Of a stretch of 64,000 nt of DNA, positions 1 to 7,403 are shown one piece after another (position 1 is the stretch's first letter; every line of letters starts with the position of its first letter). Origin of the DNA: Oceanisphaera profunda. Lineage in GTDB: Bacteria > Pseudomonadota > Gammaproteobacteria > Enterobacterales > Aeromonadaceae. The position numbers and the translations under genes are program-made. The stretch spans positions 3,410,001-3,474,000 of the forward strand of contig NZ_CP021377.1 in assembly GCF_002157895.1 (NCBI RefSeq). The letters run 5' to 3'. The notes beneath the pieces are model-generated. The model was not told where the DNA came from, searched no databases, and saw only the letters and a list, made by a program, of their open reading frames with translations.

Positions 1-1038
1 GATGATAAATATAGAGTAGGAATGGGGGCAGATTCTGTTAGAAATAGCGGTTATCGCAGCAGCTCTCTACATCAGTGGAATCTACCTTCATCCGAAGAAG
101 GTAGGACATCTATATCACCTCATCAAATTAAAGATAGCTTGTCACATTTCTGCCCTTTATTTATTGGTGCTAATCGCAGCATTAAATACAAAGAAATACA
201 AGGAATGAAAAAGGAAAGTAAAATAGACCAGAGCTTTAATGAGTATATCAGGAACAATACGAAATCGTTGTATGGGGAATGGCAATCAGATATAAAACAA
301 TGGTTTGTAAATCGTTATTTTATGATTGATAAAGACTGGGCTACTGAAGAAAAAGTTAACTGGGAACACATGCTCGAAAGTCTATCTGTAATTGCCCCAT
401 TTGACAGTAATTTTTCATATGTTGAAACAGGAAAAGATCTAGAACCAATTTTTTCAATTTACGGTAATAAGTGTTACCTAGAAGAGCTTTCTTCAGGGTT
501 TCAGGCTGTACTATCAATTATAGCTAATATATTCGAATGGATAGAAGGTAGCCGTGAAGATGGTAATAGAATTGCCAAAGAGGCGGTTGGTACAGTTTTG
601 ATTGATGAGCTTGATTTACATTTACATCCTGAATGGCAATTTACTTTGAGGGATGGGCTAGAGACTATATTTCCAAAATTACAATTCATAGTAACAACAC
701 ACTCCCCACATTTGTTAGCATCTGCAAAGTCTAATGAGGTGATTGTAATGCCTTCCAATATTGGAAGCTGTGACTTTAATGAATTGCATCCGACTAAAAG
801 CGTTTTTTCAGGTTGGAGTACTGATCAAATATTATTAGATGTTATGGGGGTAGTAAGTCTGGAAAATAAAATATATGAATCTCTAATTACTGAGGCTTTT
901 GAAAGTATCGAACATGGCTCAATAGCTACATTACGTAAAATTATTGAGCAGTTGAAAGCAATATGTCATCCAAATGACACCATAGTAATGGTTTTGAATA
1001 CTAGACTTGCGTCAATGGTCGCTTTGCATAATGGTTAA
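1..1038 (+). CDS. ptuA: PtuA-like AAA/ABC-type ATPase, 5' part outside the window (Septu defence)
   Basis: The frame is open to the first base, so only the C-terminal part is seen; the Walker A motif must lie upstream. Visible ATPase parts are an ABC-type signature region (LEELSSGFQ, nt about 478-504), Walker B with a doubled acidic pair (VLIDELDLHLHP, nt about 595-630) and the H-loop (TTHSPH, nt about 694-711). This order and spacing fit the SMC/OLD-like ATPases of Septu (PtuA). The stop overlaps the start of an HNH nuclease gene, the classic PtuA-PtuB arrangement. In known Septu systems the ATPase and nuclease form an anti-phage complex. Base composition is AT-rich, unlike the core genes. 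A reverse transcriptase upstream would instead make it a retron effector; that cannot be seen here. Confidence 0.75.
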   Translation, partial: DDKYRVGMGADSVRNSGYRSSSLHQWNLPSSEEGRTSISPHQIKDSLSHFCPLFIGANRSIKYKEIQGMKKESKIDQSFNEYIRNNTKSLYGEWQSDIKQWFVNRYFMIDKDWATEEKVNWEHMLESLSVIAPFDSNFSYVETGKDLEPIFSIYGNKCYLEELSSGFQAVLSIIANIFEWIEGSREDGNRIAKEAVGTVLIDELDLHLHPEWQFTLRDGLETIFPKLQFIVTTHSPHLLASAKSNEVIVMPSNIGSCDFNELHPTKSVFSGWSTDQILLDVMGVVSLENKIYESLITEAFESIEHGSIATLRKIIEQLKAICHPNDTIVMVLNTRLASMVALHNG

Positions 1039-1777
1039 ACTAGAAAGGGCGAATGAACCTGAGATTTTAATTGATAACAAAGCGAAATGGACTTCTGATT
1101 TGCTGACGGCAGTTAGAGACAATGGAGGGTATAAAAAAATACCAGCAAAAGACAAAGAAAAGCTTATAACATATTATAGACATCAAGCTATCAAGGATAG
1201 CCTATTCCCAAGTTCAGAAAATAAATGTGCGTTTTGTGAATGTAAACCTTCAGAAGGCGGAAATATAGAAGTTGAACATTTTGAACCCAAGTCTATTTAT
1301 CCTGATAAAACATTTGAGTGGACTAATTTTCTACCATGTTGTCGTCGTTGTAATGGAGATAAATCAGACCACGATACAGTAGTTGAACCTATACTTAATC
1401 CTTATGATGAAAACCCATCTAATGTGTTTTTTTATGAAGATATTCAGATGAAGGTTCAGGATTGTGATTTAAAAAGCAAAGGGTTAAAAACAATAGAAGT
1501 CTGCGGGTTGAATTCGTTACGTTTATGGAAGCCAAGAGCAGCACTATTAATTAATCTGAGAATATTTAGTTCCTCAATAGAGGATGCTATTAAAATATAT
1601 AGTGAAGCCGAAACGGACAGGAAAAAGAACATTAGAATAAAGAATATAAGAGAGGCGGTCGATACCATTGAAATGTTGATTGAACCAAGTGAGAAGTACT
1701 CACATTTTTGTAGTGTTTTTTTACATACATGCGCCTCATATCAAAAAGCAAAAAAAGTTATTTCTGAGCATGGATAA
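1031..1777 (+). CDS. ptuB: PtuB-like HNH endonuclease (Septu defence)
   Basis: A protein of 248 residues of the HNH family found beside AAA ATPases (TIGR02646-like). The N-terminus MVKLERANEPEIL matches the family's usual start. Zinc-type cysteine pairs CAFC (nt about 1228) and CCRRC (nt about 1336) flank an HNH core with VEHFEPKS and CNGDKSDH. I chose ATG 1031, which overlaps the ptuA stop by 8 nt, over an upstream TTG at 1007 because it gives the family N-terminus and a translational coupling overlap. The nuclease is expected to cut nucleic acid when released or activated by PtuA during infection. An attC-like site follows, so the pair appears to be one integron cassette. The functional assignment is by family and context. 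Confidence 0.8.
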   Translation: MVKLERANEPEILIDNKAKWTSDLLTAVRDNGGYKKIPAKDKEKLITYYRHQAIKDSLFPSSENKCAFCECKPSEGGNIEVEHFEPKSIYPDKTFEWTNFLPCCRRCNGDKSDHDTVVEPILNPYDENPSNVFFYEDIQMKVQDCDLKSKGLKTIEVCGLNSLRLWKPRAALLINLRIFSSSIEDAIKIYSEAETDRKKNIRIKNIREAVDTIEMLIEPSEKYSHFCSVFLHTCASYQKAKKVISEHG

Positions 1778-1796
1778 TGTTATTGTAAGTCAAATA

Positions 1797-1893
1797 GGTA
1801 TAACAAGGCGTTTAAACGGAACTTAAAATATCAGCTTAACACAGCTTAACACAGCTTATAACAGGCCACTCATGTTAGCTGTTTGCTTGAAAC
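1797..1893 (+). repeat. Possible partial attC remnant before the main attC site
   Basis: After ptuB the sequence TATAACAAGGCGTTTAAACGG (the first 20 bases are what matter) resembles the left end of a typical attC, but no matching right end follows. Instead there are two short CAGCTTAACA repeats and a block TAACAGGCCACTCATGTTAGC. A close relative of that block sits just before the attC at 3151. It may be an attC fused with, or overwritten by, the next one. Confidence 0.4.
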
Positions 1894-1969
1894 TCATAAC
1901 AAGACCAATCACAAACGCCAGCAAGCTGGCTGGACTCGCTGACGCTCGCCTGTGTTGGCGGCGTTATGA
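1894..1969 (+). repeat. attC-like integron recombination site 1
   Basis: The ends TCATAAC (1894-1900) and GTTATGA (1963-1969) are exact reverse complements, and GTTATGA has the GTTRRRY-like form of an integron R' box. Inside, ACGCCAGCAAG and TGTTGGCGGCGT are imperfectly complementary with unpaired bases, as in the folded bottom strand of attC. Length is 76 bp. Near-identical copies lie at 3151-3225 and 6243-6317. Confidence 0.75.
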
Positions 1970-2053
1970 GGAAATAATCTGTTAGGCGCGGAGTAAATTT
2001 ATAGATTGTTATCGAGTTGTCTAAGCTAAAGCAGCGAAGAATAAGGGTAAAAC

Positions 2054-2266
2054 CCTTAGTAATCCCCTCATTTTAATAGCAGATCGCGTCATGTTAGCTG
2101 CACAATCTAAATATGCACTAACCCCAAAAATCAGCTGAGACCGCATTGTGCCTAGGGATAGGAAATTTTCTAAGTTACGCAGTACCACAGTAGAGTTTCG
2201 TCGTTTCTTGCCACTACTGCTCTCAAACTCAGGTGTGGCGCGGTTTATATGAGGGGATTGGTAAGG
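2054..2266. repeat. MITE-like inverted-repeat element in the cassette leader
   Basis: Arms CCTTAGTAATCCCCTCAT (2054-2071) and ATGAGGGGATTGGTAAGG (2249-2266) are reverse complements with two mismatches. The 13-base direct repeat TAAGGGTAAAACC overlaps both outer ends (2042-2054 and 2262-2274). I find no open reading frame inside. It occupies most of the 1970-2308 gap between the attC site and the next gene. It could be a small non-autonomous insertion or a structured RNA leader. Confidence 0.45.
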
Positions 2267-2308
2267 GTAAAACCAGCATCATTAAAGTTAAGATCAAAAG
2301 GGATGATT

Positions 2309-3061
2309 ATGAAAGGAATAATAAAAACCTATTTACCTGAAAAGAGATATGGGTTTATCAAGGGTGATGATGGCAAGGATTATTTTTTTCATGCAAGCGA
2401 ATTCCGTGACAAGGAGCATGCTGAGCAATTATGTGAGGAGGGCTTCGTCCATTTTGACCAGCAGGCAACGCCTAAAGGATATAAAGCAAAAAATTGCTCG
2501 CTTCTTAACCCTTCTGATATATTAACTTACATCAAACCCGATGAATTTATGACAACTAGATCGAGGCATGTCTCTGGTTGGGAAGTTCTTGAGCAGAGTA
2601 GTTGGATTGTTCATGGTTCCTCAAGAGACTCCCCTGATGCAGCGAAAAAAGAAACCATGGATGGTGCTGTACGCATAGGTGCTAATGCACTTATAAATTT
2701 TGAATATTATAAGACTACTGGTTCTGAGCCCGGAACTGGTAATGGTACTTATAATTATACTATTCATAATTTCCGTGGCCGTGCAGTAACAATAGCTAAA
2801 CGCAATTCTAAAGGAAAGCATCTAGAGAGTGACTTTCTAGGTTTAAATGAAAAAGGGGAACAGTTAAAAGCTAGATTGATTGAAGATACGAAGAAGAGTA
2901 AAAACAAAAGAAATGTTATTTGGCTTATAGTTTCCTTGCTTACTTTTATATCGTTGTCAACTGTATTTTTTAATAGTGTTTTTTATATTATTTTCTTTGT
3001 TTTTATAGGTTTTGTCTTTGGTCGTTCAACTGATTATGACTCTTGGTTAGAGAGGGCGTGA
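2309..3061 (+). CDS. Cold-shock-domain protein with two C-terminal membrane helices
   Basis: A protein of 250 residues. Residues 1-64 form a cold-shock (OB-fold) domain with RNP-like motifs RYGFIK (13-18) and DYFFHAS (24-30), so it should bind single-stranded nucleic acid. Residues about 85-165 are a soluble segment I do not recognise; it has some likeness to YbjQ/dodecin-type small folds (GANALINFEYY). Residues about 205-245 form two hydrophobic helices. I chose ATG 2309 (or 2303, two codons earlier) because AAAAGGG lies just upstream and the domain begins there; the frame is open further upstream. It sits alone between two attC sites. No function can be given beyond nucleic-acid binding at a membrane. 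Confidence 0.7.
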   Translation: MKGIIKTYLPEKRYGFIKGDDGKDYFFHASEFRDKEHAEQLCEEGFVHFDQQATPKGYKAKNCSLLNPSDILTYIKPDEFMTTRSRHVSGWEVLEQSSWIVHGSSRDSPDAAKKETMDGAVRIGANALINFEYYKTTGSEPGTGNGTYNYTIHNFRGRAVTIAKRNSKGKHLESDFLGLNEKGEQLKARLIEDTKKSKNKRNVIWLIVSLLTFISLSTVFFNSVFYIIFFVFIGFVFGRSTDYDSWLERA

Positions 3062-3150
3062 ACTATTTTAATAGTTTATAATTTTCGTTTAGATAATACA
3101 CATTAAAAACCAGCTTAACAGGACACCCATGTTAGTTGTTTGCTTGAAGC

Positions 3151-3225
3151 TCATAACAAGGCCAATCACAAACGCCAGCAAGCTGGCTGGATTCGCTACG
3201 TTCGCCTGTGTTGGCGGCGTTAAGT
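3151..3225 (+). repeat. attC-like integron recombination site 2
   Basis: This is nearly identical to the site at 1894-1969: left end TCATAAC, an internal CGCCAGCAAGCTGGCTGG stretch, right end GTTAAGT. The likeness continues about 40 bp to the left (TTAACAGGACACCCATGTTAG), so the cassette 3' ends share more than the core attC. Confidence 0.72.
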
Positions 3226-3261
3226 GCAATCAGCAATAGTGACATCAAAAAGTAGGGAAGT

Positions 3262-3669
3262 ATGAGTATTAATATAAAGTGGGATGGCGATTGTAATTTT
3301 AGTGTGTTAACTGAAAGCGGCTTTACGTTTAATGTTGACGCTACAAGTAAGAAAGCTCCTTGTCCAACTGAAGTTCTATTGTCGGCTTTAGGTTCATGCA
3401 GTGCGACGGATGTCGTCTTGTTACTGCAAGAGCAAAATTTTGAAGTTAAGGGTTTAGAAAATACGGTTACTTTCGCCCTAACGGAATCAGAACCTCATTT
3501 ATATAAATCGGCAAACTTGCACTTTACAGTACATGGCTGTGGTTTTCAGGAGTCTGATATTTTGCGAGCAGTTCAAGAAGCTGTGGAAAAGCATTGTCAT
3601 GTTTGTCTTATGTTGAGTCCTACGATCGATATCACTTATTCAGCGGAAGTTGGCAATAATTGCACTTAA
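3262..3669 (+). CDS. OsmC/Ohr-family protein
   Basis: A protein of 135 residues with the OsmC fold. It has the conserved cysteine in LGSCSATDV (C46) and the second site in KHCHVCLM (C112, C115), as in OsmC/YhfA-type thiol peroxidases. Such proteins reduce organic hydroperoxides or act in sulfur-related stress in the cytoplasm. Length is normal for the family. An AGGGAAG ribosome-binding site precedes ATG 3262. It is a single-gene cassette between two attC-like sites of different types. YhfA-like and Ohr-like substrates cannot be told apart from sequence alone. Confidence 0.8.
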   Translation: MSINIKWDGDCNFSVLTESGFTFNVDATSKKAPCPTEVLLSALGSCSATDVVLLLQEQNFEVKGLENTVTFALTESEPHLYKSANLHFTVHGCGFQESDILRAVQEAVEKHCHVCLMLSPTIDITYSAEVGNNCT

Positions 3670-3791
3670 TAAATTATTTAAGAATGATTCCCAACGCTTG
3701 GCATTTTCAATTCAAGGTCCTATTCCGTGTTTACGGCGCAATATTCTAGGTTTGATGGTAGCGTTGCTCACACCTTAACGCGGCGTTATGT
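3665..3791 (+). repeat. Long Vibrio-repeat-type attC site 3
   Basis: About 127 bp starting at the osmC-like stop codon. It contains CCAACGCTTGGCATTTTCA, then TTTGATGGTAGCGTTGCTC, and ends CACCTTAACGCGGCGTTATG. From memory this layout matches the long attC sites (VCR-like) of vibrio superintegrons. It differs clearly from the 75-bp sites elsewhere in this array, so this cassette probably came from another integron pool. The left boundary is approximate. Confidence 0.65.
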
Positions 3792-3821
3792 GTCAGCCTT
3801 TAACTCAGTAGTGGAGTCTCA

Positions 3822-5534
3822 ATGCAATTTATTCCAAATACAGTCTTAGGACTATTTGATAGTTCGCAAAAATCATATGAAATCCCTGTTTATCAAAGAG
3901 CGTACTCATGGGAAAAACTAAATTGGAAAACATTTCTGGATGATTTATTAGAACAAGTGCAAGGACATAATAATTATTTTTTTGGTAATTTGTTACTGGA
4001 AGTAATTAGTAAAAATAAAAAATATGAAGTTATTGATGGTCAACAACGCATTACCACATTAATAATATTTATGAGATCAATGCTGAATGTATTGAAAAGT
4101 AGAATCAATGATCCCGTATTAAGCAACTTTGATTATAAAGCAAAAGAAAGTATCTATTTTAAAAATAGTGGAAATATAAAACTACGACCTGTTGAGTATG
4201 ATAGAGCATGTTTCGATGCGCTAATAATTGATAATAAAAGTAATTTCTCTGTAGGAACACCATCACAAAAAAGAATGAAGTCTGCAAAAGAATATTTTGA
4301 AAACGAACTGGATAAAATAGACTCTTTAAAACTACTTGAGATTTTAGATAAAATAGAGAGTACCGATTTAACTATTGTTGAATTAGAAGGTAAGAAAGAC
4401 TCAGCTTTGATGTTTGAGTTGGAAAATAATAGAGGTAAAGAGTTAACCAATATGGAAAAAATTAAATCATATTTCATGTACCAAATGTATGTCTATAGTA
4501 AGCCTGAAGAAGTTGAAATGAATATTGAAAGTATTTCAAACATTTTCAAATTAATTTATTTAATAATAAATGATCTTAAAAATATAAATGAAGATAGTAT
4601 CTTAATTTATCATAATAATGCTTACATAAAAGGTTTTGCTTATCGTACTTTAGATGATGTAAAAGATGCATTTAAGAAGTCAGATGATAAGGTCGAATGG
4701 ATAAAGTCTTATGTCGAAGAATTACACACTACTTTTTCTAATGTAAAAAAATTCGAAGCGTCGAATGACTTTTTTGCACAAAGACTTAATGAGCTAGGAG
4801 CTCCTGCATTCATATACCCTTTTATTATTAAAGGGTATAAGTATTTTGTTGAAGACAATACTAAGTTGAATCAGCTTTTTAATATTCTAGAAGTTATTAC
4901 TTTCAGAGCAAAATTAATAAATAGTAGAGCAAATATACAAGAAAGATTAAATGGGATTTTACTATCATTTAATGGCGATTTGGCAGATTTACTTAAAAAG
5001 ATAAAAAGCAAGCTTAATGAATCTTGGTACTGGGGAGACTCGAATACCAAAAATTATTTAAATGGTTCTATGTATGGTAATAATGTACTGAATTATTTGC
5101 TTTGGAGGTATGAAAACCATATCCAAAACAAAGGTTACAGCATTAGAACGTTTTCAATTGAAAATGAGCAAATAGAGCATGTTTCACCACAGACTCCTAC
5201 AAATGGTGAGCCAATTGAAACGGGATATGAAGTTGACGTTGATAATCAATACTGTGATGAATTTATTGCTGAAAAGTTAAACTCCATGGGGAATTTAATG
5301 CTTATCTCAGGTTCTCATAATTCTTCTATCGGAAATAAGCCGTTTAGTAAAAAGCTTGCCACATATAAAAACAATCCCCTATTAAATCAACAAGCTGAAA
5401 TTGTAAAGTTTGCAAAACATGAAAATAACTTACCTGTATGGAAAAGTAAATCTATAGATGAAAGGCAAGATAAGCTTTTAATATTTGCTATAGAAAACTG
5501 GAGCTTTGATCAAATAAAAGTCATCTGTTTTTAA
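3822..5534 (+). CDS. DUF262/DUF1524 (GmrSD-like) putative nuclease
   Basis: A protein of 570 residues. The N-terminal DUF262 domain shows IPVYQRAYSW (21-30) and IDGQQRITTL (71-80), the ParB-like nucleotide-handling motif. The C-terminal part shows the DUF1524 His-Me/HNH-type motif EHVSPQ (about 452) followed by GNLMLISGSHNSSIGN. This two-domain layout is that of GmrSD type IV restriction enzymes and SspE-like effectors, which attack modified or foreign DNA. It is a single-gene cassette, AT-rich, between attC sites 3 and 4. A defence role is inferred from the family; the substrate is unknown. Confidence 0.75.
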   Translation: MQFIPNTVLGLFDSSQKSYEIPVYQRAYSWEKLNWKTFLDDLLEQVQGHNNYFFGNLLLEVISKNKKYEVIDGQQRITTLIIFMRSMLNVLKSRINDPVLSNFDYKAKESIYFKNSGNIKLRPVEYDRACFDALIIDNKSNFSVGTPSQKRMKSAKEYFENELDKIDSLKLLEILDKIESTDLTIVELEGKKDSALMFELENNRGKELTNMEKIKSYFMYQMYVYSKPEEVEMNIESISNIFKLIYLIINDLKNINEDSILIYHNNAYIKGFAYRTLDDVKDAFKKSDDKVEWIKSYVEELHTTFSNVKKFEASNDFFAQRLNELGAPAFIYPFIIKGYKYFVEDNTKLNQLFNILEVITFRAKLINSRANIQERLNGILLSFNGDLADLLKKIKSKLNESWYWGDSNTKNYLNGSMYGNNVLNYLLWRYENHIQNKGYSIRTFSIENEQIEHVSPQTPTNGEPIETGYEVDVDNQYCDEFIAEKLNSMGNLMLISGSHNSSIGNKPFSKKLATYKNNPLLNQQAEIVKFAKHENNLPVWKSKSIDERQDKLLIFAIENWSFDQIKVICF

Positions 5535-5541
5535 TAAATGC

Positions 5542-5633
5542 AGGTAACAAGTTGCTTAAGCGGAATAAAAACAGTTGGCCATCGATTCGCGATTTTAGCT
5601 AACCATTTTTATCCGCTTATCAAGGCGTTGGTT
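5542..5633 (+). repeat. attC-like integron recombination site 4
   Basis: The left end AGGTAAC is followed by TTGCTTAAGCGGAATAAAAA. The right part TTTTTATCCGCTTATCAAGG is nearly its reverse complement, ending at GTTGGTT. Length is about 92 bp, and the arms are long, as expected for attC. It has a different sequence from the other sites. It lies between the DUF262 gene and the toxin gene. Confidence 0.65.
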
Positions 5634-5637
5634 GCCA

Positions 5638-5913
5638 CTACGTCGGAAATTTTTGTTTCTGGTGTAGTATTCTCATGATACGAATTACTGAGCCATCAAC
5701 TGAATAGGAAACTATCATTGATATCTCAGGGATTATAAGTAATCGACCTTTTATATCATCTCGCTGAACGCTCATTAATGGCTGTTGAAGTAAATTTTCT
5801 ATCTTTTCTTCAATGATCTGATCTGTTTTATCTGCAGCCGCAGGATTAAAGTCATAAAGAAATTCAAAAATTTTTTCTCGGTCGTTCAGAGATTCTTCTT
5901 CCCATAAGATCAC
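5638..5913 (-). CDS. RelE/ParE-family toxin
   Basis: A protein of 91 residues with the RelE/ParE fold pattern: an N-terminal helix pair, RDDIKGRLLIIPEISMIVSY in the middle and a final strand VIRIMRILHQKQKFP. The C-terminal arginine-histidine stretch is typical of ribosome-dependent RelE-type mRNA nucleases. It starts with GTG at 5913, overlapping the antitoxin stop by 4 nt (GTGA), so the two are co-translated. It lies on the strand opposite to the other cassettes; toxin-antitoxin cassettes in integrons often carry their own promoter and are thought to stabilise the array. Whether it is RelE-like (mRNA) or ParE-like (gyrase) is not certain. Confidence 0.82.
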   Translation of the reverse strand: MILWEEESLNDREKIFEFLYDFNPAAADKTDQIIEEKIENLLQQPLMSVQRDDIKGRLLIIPEISMIVSYSVDGSVIRIMRILHQKQKFPT

Positions 5914-6197
5914 TGATTAACACTCCGGCTGCGGATCTTAGCTTTGCGTTCTGCCATTATAGATTTGGCTTGGTCATGTTCAATAAAAGTAGACTTTCCG
6001 GCATCTAACTTTTCGAAAGCTAAATTTACCTGCTCACTTAGCCAAGCATCATGAGACGAGGCTTTACGTTGTTGATCAGCTAATTGCTCTGTAAGTTCTC
6101 TACAAGCATCACTAAGGGTACGGCCTTGGCTCTCAGCCATTTGTTGGGCCAAGCGTTTGGTTTCTTCATCGACTCGAAACTGAATTCTAGTATCCAT
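5910..6197 (-). CDS. RelB/DinJ-family antitoxin
   Basis: A protein of 95 residues. The N-terminal ribbon-helix-helix starts MDTRIQFRVDEETKRLAQQ, and the C-terminal half is a charged helix that should wrap the toxin. I chose ATG 6197 rather than an upstream start at 6227 because RelB/DinJ antitoxins begin at this motif. It precedes and overlaps the toxin gene. Such antitoxins repress their own promoter with the toxin as co-repressor. The promoter should lie at about 6200-6245, beside attC site 5. Confidence 0.82.
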   Translation of the reverse strand: MDTRIQFRVDEETKRLAQQMAESQGRTLSDACRELTEQLADQQRKASSHDAWLSEQVNLAFEKLDAGKSTFIEHDQAKSIMAERKAKIRSRSVNQ

Positions 6198-6242
6198 AAC
6201 AGCATCCAACTTGTTGTGTGTGCACAAACGTTAGCACAGGGT

Positions 6243-6317
6243 AACTAACAAGACCAATCACAACCGCCAGCAAGCTGGCTGGACTCGCTACGCTCGCTTG
6301 TGTTGGCGGCGTTAGCA
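6243..6317 (+). repeat. attC-like integron recombination site 5 (last clear site)
   Basis: This is almost identical to the sites at 1894 and 3151 (CGCCAGCAAGCTGGCTGGAC, then TGTTGGCGGCGTTAGCA), with ends AACTAAC and GTTAGCA. It closes the toxin-antitoxin cassette. No convincing attC was found further right, so the array probably ends here or its later sites have decayed. Confidence 0.72.
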
Positions 6318-6444
6318 TTGAAGGGAAATCATTGGCCACTTTTTTAATATTCTCGCACATGGCATGGAGCTGACTAGTTGATGAAGCAAATTGAGTCACT
6401 CATAGTCAGCATTTTTGCTAAATTTAAGCCTCAGCTCTCACGGT

Positions 6445-6978
6445 TTATATAAAAAACCCAAATCGCCGTACACAAACATCAACATCGAATTCTTGACCTA
6501 TGGCCACCACGGCAATGCTTTTTATCTCTGCTGGTTGCAGCTCTGCTTCGGTGCGATGAGCGAGCAGTTGCTGAAAGGGCACAATGAATCGAGTCCATTG
6601 TGGCTTCACGGACAAAGTGTAGCGAAAAGACTGCCAAGGTCGGGTTAGCTGAGCGGTTTTTACATGCAGATTATAATCGTGGCCGTTGCCAGCCAGCTCA
6701 ATGAAGATCCCTTTGTAGTCAGCACTTAACTCACTCGGCTCAATATCAAGCTTTATCTGCACGAATCCGCCGTTGTTATCAAGGCTGGTGCGGCCCACTA
6801 AACAGGTACAGGGCGAATGATGACGTTCTGCTTGGTGTTGTGTCGCACGAGAGACACCGCCCATTACCTGATCACTGATCACTTTCCAAGGTGAAGGCTC
6901 ATGCTGAGCACAGTTATAAACATCAACTAATTGTTCGGCAAGAACCGCCGGGCCGTGAGTGTTAATATTGTCATTCAT
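6445..6978 (-). CDS. CIA30-family protein
   Basis: A protein of 177 residues (from ATG 6978; an upstream start at 7008 is possible). It shows the CIA30/NDUFAF1-like pattern SDQVMGGVSRA near the N-terminus and a beta-rich galactose-binding-like body with DNNGGFVQIKLD and PWQSFRYTLSVKPQWTRFIVPF. Mitochondrial relatives help assemble complex I; bacterial members have no settled role. The gene follows the last attC site on the opposite strand. It may be a cassette whose attC has decayed or the first chromosomal gene beyond the array. No signal peptide is seen. Confidence 0.72.
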   Translation of the reverse strand: MNDNINTHGPAVLAEQLVDVYNCAQHEPSPWKVISDQVMGGVSRATQHQAERHHSPCTCLVGRTSLDNNGGFVQIKLDIEPSELSADYKGIFIELAGNGHDYNLHVKTAQLTRPWQSFRYTLSVKPQWTRFIVPFQQLLAHRTEAELQPAEIKSIAVVAIGQEFDVDVCVRRFGFFI

Positions 6979-7403
6979 ACGTGATTGCGCTCCTAGGCTT
7001 GCATACAACTTCTGACCGGTTTAATAACAGGCTAGCAGGTAACGCCGGCTGGTTTTTCTTGAGTATCGCAGATTGCAGGTCGTACCCTAACGGGCCACCC
7101 ATGTTAGCTGCTGGATTTTTGGTTTGGGATCTACACTCAAAGAGTTCATTTTTTAGACTCTTTGAGAAGGCCCGGATGCCTAAGCCCCGTTTACTCAAGT
7201 TAGCTTGTTAGATACGCCTGTTACATGGCGTCCTTTATCACTGCGTCAGTCGCACGAGACGAAGGGCGTGCTTGTGTGTACAGAACAGTACTTTTCATCA
7301 GCAATATGGGGCAATGCTTTGAGTATCGCCGCGGTTGGATAGAGTAACGCTTCTGTTGTGGGCGCAGAGGTCTTTTTTAGATACTGGTTAGGAGAGAATA
7401 ATC
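6979..7403. other. Non-coding stretch with cassette-end-like fragment
   Basis: No credible gene is present. CTAACGGGCCACCCATGTTAGCTG (around 7087-7110) resembles the block that precedes attC sites at 1894 and 3151, suggesting a decayed cassette end. A perfect 10-base stem, CTCAAAGAGT/ACTCTTTGAG, spans about 7137-7167 with a T-rich loop. AGGAGAG at 7391 is the ribosome-binding site of the next gene. Confidence 0.4.

Follow-up and report, generated by a model that had tools for sequence, protein, structure and literature searches.

The window, a 64,000-nucleotide stretch of the Oceanisphaera profunda genome (NZ_CP021377.1, positions 3,410,001 to 3,474,000), contains near its start a gene encoding a protein that combines a cold-shock domain (CSD), a YbjQ-like domain and a predicted membrane hairpin (Table 1). 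The gene lies in an array in which two small genes are followed, going downstream, by a RelA/SpoT-domain gene, the PtuA–PtuB pair (Septu), the CSD gene, OsmC, GmrSD and a RelE/RelB-like pair, the last named by eye as a probable toxin–antitoxin. PtuA has 418 residues and its start lies before the window. The RelA/SpoT-domain cassette, just upstream of PtuAB (L129 10410–11573, genome 3408410–3409573), had no match among the PADLOC models.

Table 1 Features of the CSD cassette, in window coordinates.
Feature	Position	Strand	Evidence
attC upstream of the CSD cassette	1897..1970	+	Repeat stretch 1890–1975
MITE-like short repeat element, inserted between attC and start codon	2055..2271	.	Second genomic copy
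CSD + YbjQ-like + membrane-hairpin protein, 250 residues	2309..3061	+	ATG 2309, stop 3061
Cold-shock (OB-fold) domain, residues 1–63	2309..2497	+	Pfam CSD, E 2.9e-11
YbjQ/UPF0145-like domain, about residues 80–170	2546..2818	+	AF2 model, Foldseek, VIA, hhalign
Charged helical linker, about residues 171–201	2819..2911	+	Sequence; low-confidence helix in full-length model
Hydrophobic hairpin, residues 202–238, two predicted membrane helices	2912..3022	+	Hydropathy
Short C-terminus with WL motif common to the window clade	3023..3058	+	Tail comparison
attC downstream of the CSD cassette	3154..3225	+	Repeat stretch 3147–3222; boundary homology to Vibrio plasmids

The CSD gene is the sole gene of a roughly 1.26-kb cassette between two predicted attC sites, the arrangement by which an integron cassette is recognized. 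Across the whole genome, the upstream site has copies of 94–96% identity only at 3147–3222 and 6246–6314, and other attC-like sites occur near 3690–3790 and 5546–5632 and upstream of the window. DNA folding is clear for two of the sites (z of −4.0 and −5.4) and weak for the rest, including both that flank the CSD gene, so the identity of this pair is drawn mainly from repeat structure and boundary homology. In the neighbouring OsmC cassette (3216–3669), the stretch homologous to Vibrio plasmids begins approximately where the attC site has its GTT crossover, which provides independent support for the cassette boundary. The OsmC leader reaches 98% identity with OsmC leaders on Vibrio plasmids, and on one such plasmid OsmC is near SduA-domain and GNAT genes. 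A search of the complete genome for an integron integrase yielded nothing above the TIGR02249 cut-off, and the array is therefore classed as a cluster of attC sites without an integrase rather than as an integron proper. It resembles the defence cassettes of chromosomal integrons in that an attC-bounded cassette is arrayed with PtuAB and GmrSD, and differs from them in having no detectable integrase and in that the CSD gene has no known defence activity. The preliminary description, which placed the gene alone in a cassette among defence genes, was correct on both counts.

The repeat element has inverted arms at 2052–2076 and 2244–2268, and a 10-bp direct repeat, GGGTAAAACC, lies on either side of it (2045–2054 and 2265–2274). 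A second copy of 217 bp, 100% identical, is located at genome position 1702087–1702303, and an Oceanisphaera plasmid with five matching places contains a sequence 88% identical to the element. The ATG at 2309 is preceded by a plausible ribosome-binding site, AAAAGGGATGATTATG. An alternative in-frame start at 2249, which would give a longer open reading frame, falls within the inserted element and is unlikely. No match was obtained in an Rfam scan of window positions 1–7000, and a promoter and terminator scan gave results at chance level.

The open reading frame, the Pfam CSD match and hydropathy agree on a three-part order, in which a CSD (residues 1–63) is followed by a compact domain (about 80–170) and a hydrophobic hairpin (about 202–238), as had been read from the sequence initially. 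The same architecture is found in relatives from other classes at identities down to 36–37%, which argues against a chance fusion. Comparison with three relatives indicates purifying selection on the coding sequence (pN of 0.21–0.30 against pS of 0.77–0.87), with constraint strongest in the CSD, intermediate in the middle domain and lowest in the linker and tail (pN of 0.32–0.41 for linker and hairpin). The CSD passes the PF00313 cut-off (43.5 bits against a curated 27), and residues K12, G15, F16, I17, Y25, F26 and H28 are invariant in an alignment of 12 relatives. Its closest sequence in the PDB is entry 2kcm (E of 1.4e-16, with the runner-up at only 1.7e-4). Most of the positions through which cold-shock proteins such as CspB bind single-stranded nucleic acid are retained (K12, Y14, F16, F26 and H28), and two canonical aromatic positions of the domain are altered (T7 and A29, in place of W8 and F30 in CspB). 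Proteins that join a CSD to DUF1294 resemble the window protein in that membrane helices come after an N-terminal CSD. In the window protein, however, a YbjQ-like domain lies in between, and no Pfam match to DUF1294 was detected up to an E of 1.

The middle domain is the segment of 80 residues that the preliminary description did not recognize and for which it proposed structure prediction. The full-length AF2 model, built from five sequences, was of low confidence (pLDDT 56) and unusable for fold comparison, and the middle domain was modelled by itself instead, from nine sequences (pLDDT 84.2, pTM 0.70). The predicted model has the β-α-β-β arrangement of the YbjQ fold. All eight Foldseek matches in the PDB below an E of 1e-3 are to YbjQ/UPF0145 proteins (1y2i, E of 6.9e-5, and 1vr4, E of 7.8e-5) or to DUF74 (3qkb). 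With VIA, the model is most similar to PDB entry 1vr4 (Z-score of 12.2 over 74 residues, 1.2 Å), followed by 1y2i (Z-score of 10.3), 3qkb (Z-score of 10.0) and RcsF (Z-score of 9.6). When a profile built from 15 sequences of the segment was aligned by hhalign with six bona fide YbjQ proteins, the E was 7e-6 and the probability 84. In a profile search of PDB sequences, four of the five top entries belong to the YbjQ/DUF1471 fold group, at E values of 0.026–0.046 that are individually insignificant. The Pfam YbjQ_1 model was matched by two of 12 relatives (best E of 0.018). The window protein itself does not match the Pfam YbjQ model (PF01906), and for this reason the assignment is based on the fold and on family profiles, and the domain is named YbjQ-like rather than a PF01906 member. 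YbjQ/UPF0145 proteins (PF01906; 1vr4 and 1y2i) share the fold of the middle domain, but are free-standing, with about 105 residues and without a CSD or membrane helices. YbjQ, DUF74, DUF1471 and RcsF have one common fold, and YbjQ and DUF74 appear to be pentameric (PMC4092069).

The hydrophobic run that follows the linker extends over 37 residues, with hydropathy peaks at 203–219 and 219–237; since it exceeds the length of one helix and has two peaks, two membrane helices are predicted. A basic patch at the end of the linker, KKSKNKR, suggests that the N-terminal side lies in the cytoplasm, and the C-terminus is probably cytoplasmic as well. A membrane-anchored nucleic-acid-binding protein, as first proposed for this gene, is well supported at the sequence level by the conserved ligand-binding positions of the CSD together with the hydrophobic tail.

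Full-length relatives occur in Neptunicella (64% identity), Marinobacter (58%), the same-family genome G036 (53%) and G026 (32%), and further ones in Rhodanobacter, in Campylobacterota MAGs including Sulfurimonas, and on an Arcobacter plasmid. At an E of 1e-4, a profile of the middle domain had matches in 47 of the 394 genomes searched within the order, the weakest matches being doubtful, and a class-wide search with a full-length profile was swamped by ordinary cold-shock proteins. No match to the family was found in the phage records searched; among viral contigs there was one clear full relative, from the one-helix clade (L044), and further queries found none. The 23 proteins of the tree fall into three main groups: the window clade, a clade of Pseudomonas megaplasmids, and one whose members have a short tail with a single helix (hereafter the sister clade). 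The window clade (eight tree rows, support 95/91) is marked by a longer, two-helix tail and a terminal WL motif, and is scattered across Gammaproteobacteria and Campylobacterota. Its hydrophobic run of 37 residues in the window protein compares with about 20–26 residues in the sister clade.

The sister clade holds near-identical relatives of Shewanella oneidensis SO1732. The N-terminal OB domain of SO1732 has been solved as PDB entry 2kcm (PMC10412457), which differs from clade member L118 at one residue over 66. SO1732 has 224 residues; its C-terminus has been described as resembling no known protein, and it showed neither cold induction nor an effect on growth in the cold (2011 review, PMC3168786). 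The window protein has the features of the SO1732-type family, with a 2kcm-type CSD, the same second domain and a hydrophobic C-terminal tail, and the near-identical SO1732 relatives L117 and L118 have the same three-part order. However, it lies outside the SO1732-type clade both in the tree and in its tail. Members of that clade have about 220–228 residues, one predicted tail helix and no WL motif, share about 25% identity with the window protein, and are chromosomal rather than cassette-borne. In one genus of this clade, each of the 11 genomes carries a single copy of the gene, and the two loci read there have the same neighbours (peptide deformylase-like and HAD phosphatase-like, named by eye). 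As far as sequence can tell, the window gene is a horizontally moving member of an existing family with a CSD, a YbjQ-like domain and a membrane tail. The architecture had been noticed earlier; for its domain content and for the two-helix clade, no description was found in the literature searched.

Computation shows the three-part architecture, the YbjQ/UPF0145 fold of the middle domain, conservation of the CSD ligand positions, purifying selection and the attC-bounded cassette. The best explanation, to which we give about an even chance, is that the gene encodes a cassette-borne, membrane-tethered, oligomeric RNA-binding regulator and is a stand-alone accessory gene. The CSD and the YbjQ-like domain would be cytoplasmic and tethered to the inner membrane through the helical hairpin. 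By analogy with YbjQ pentamers, the YbjQ-like domain may oligomerize and thereby set several CSDs side by side. At the membrane, such an assembly could bind single-stranded RNA or DNA and alter the fate of transcripts, with a putative role as a stress-linked post-transcriptional regulator. The gene would be carried as an accessory on its own and not as part of a multi-gene system; no partner gene common to the loci was found.

An unlikely alternative is an envelope-stress or metal-linked sensor, in which a ligand or stress at the membrane would be sensed by the YbjQ-like domain and signalled to mRNA through the CSD. The fold matches to RcsF and YbjQ, the kinship of the fold to DUF1471, the Pfam label of YbjQ as 'putative heavy-metal-binding' and the lipoprotein-like genes adjoining two Campylobacterota relatives are all in keeping with it. 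However, the YbjQ-like domain shows no cluster of conserved Cys or His residues in the alignment, the loci have no stress-regulon neighbours, and RcsF acts in the periplasm, whereas the domain is fused here to a CSD that should be cytoplasmic.

The preliminary description went on from a membrane-anchored nucleic-acid binder to the effector of an undescribed defence system, and this second step we consider unlikely. In that reading, phage RNA or single-stranded DNA would be sensed by the CSD, the YbjQ-like ring would assemble or be reshaped, and the hairpins would form pores in the membrane or perturb it, as in abortive infection. Membrane attack in abortive infection has been proposed for two-helix membrane effectors. 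The genomic context was assessed with PADLOC models (E of 1e-10 or better, within 5 kb of the gene). Among the best 25 of 110 matched families, defence-type genes were counted near at least four of 11 window-clade loci: PtuAB and GmrSD in the window, BrxL and a PDC-S26 nuclease in Marinobacter, AbiEi/AbiEii in a same-family relative, and PDC-S31 (DUF2971) in Neptunicella. PD-T4-2_B and PD-Lambda-2_B were strong further matches in the 11-locus set, outside the count of four. No sister-clade locus of six was counted, the six model matches there (HTH_VI, CSD_V, ZorD, PD-Lambda-2_B and DpdE twice, E of 4e-15 or weaker) being judged incidental. One of 12 evenly spaced control stretches from two genomes was counted, for JetD, the other matches being of helicase, regulator and dGTPase type. 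The enrichment that the preliminary description had suggested examining is thus suggestive (at least 4/11 against 1/18 pooled), but not significant (one-sided Fisher p of 0.13 and 0.14 for the two comparison sets taken singly and 0.054 when they are pooled), and as the hits to count were chosen by eye after viewing, the controls come from two genomes and the window is itself among the four, it constitutes weak evidence.

The cassette array and the scattered, horizontally moving clade also favour a defence role. Against this, no defence-type gene was counted at seven of the 11 loci, again among the best 25 of 110 matched families, the neighbouring defence genes vary by locus and each belongs to a known system itself, no retron or other known partner travels with the gene, the linker and hairpin are the least conserved parts, and the sister clade is a fixed chromosomal gene. 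SO1732, the one relative to have been tested, is likewise chromosomal, and the published work on it addressed cold alone. A more specific proposal, distinctly improbable, takes the two-helix clade as an anti-phage effector encoded by a single gene: a CSD ring, anchored in the membrane, that would recognize phage nucleic acid and then attack the membrane. To our knowledge, the combination of a CSD-ring sensor with membrane attack has not been described for any known defence system; should the mobile clade turn out to encode a defence effector, this would be a new design of sensor.

The effector of a type V (Se72-like) retron whose reverse transcriptase was lost or lies elsewhere is rejected as very improbable: the top NCBIfam/PADLOC models for the CSD are the retron Se72 effector and CSD_V, and the CSDs are related at the domain level, but these models span a bare CSD of 62–64 residues, the score of 41.7 bits is below the curated cut-off of 82, among the neighbours in the sister-clade set, where an ordinary cold-shock protein also occurs, one is matched by CSD_V too, 2kcm is a far closer CSD relative, and the reading is contradicted by the whole genome, which has no match to a reverse transcriptase (RVT_1).

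The predicted model supplies a fold for that part of SO1732 which had been reported to resemble no known protein, and the analysis defines three clades of membrane-tethered cold-shock proteins as one family; one clade is fixed and chromosomal in a genus, and another is mobile. The findings suggest that CSDs are used at the membrane as well, and the function becomes testable in an easy host.

Several further features of the family were observed. A simple attC pattern search at the relatives' loci was uninformative, as it also matches inside ordinary genes. The Pseudomonas megaplasmid clade (L040, L041 and L043, including pQBR103) is located among plasmid backbone genes. Three of 11 window-clade copies are damaged (L006 6001–6726, L004 3793–4542 and L005 1640–2376) by in-frame stops, two in Rhodanobacter and one in a Campylobacterales MAG, or by a frameshift; the stop in the MAG falls at the conserved W99. 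Such damage would be expected for a dispensable gene, or for assembly errors. In a more distant branch (family f3, L122–L128), the YbjQ-like domain and the tail helix are kept and the N-terminal domain has diverged, so that these two retained parts may form the conserved core.
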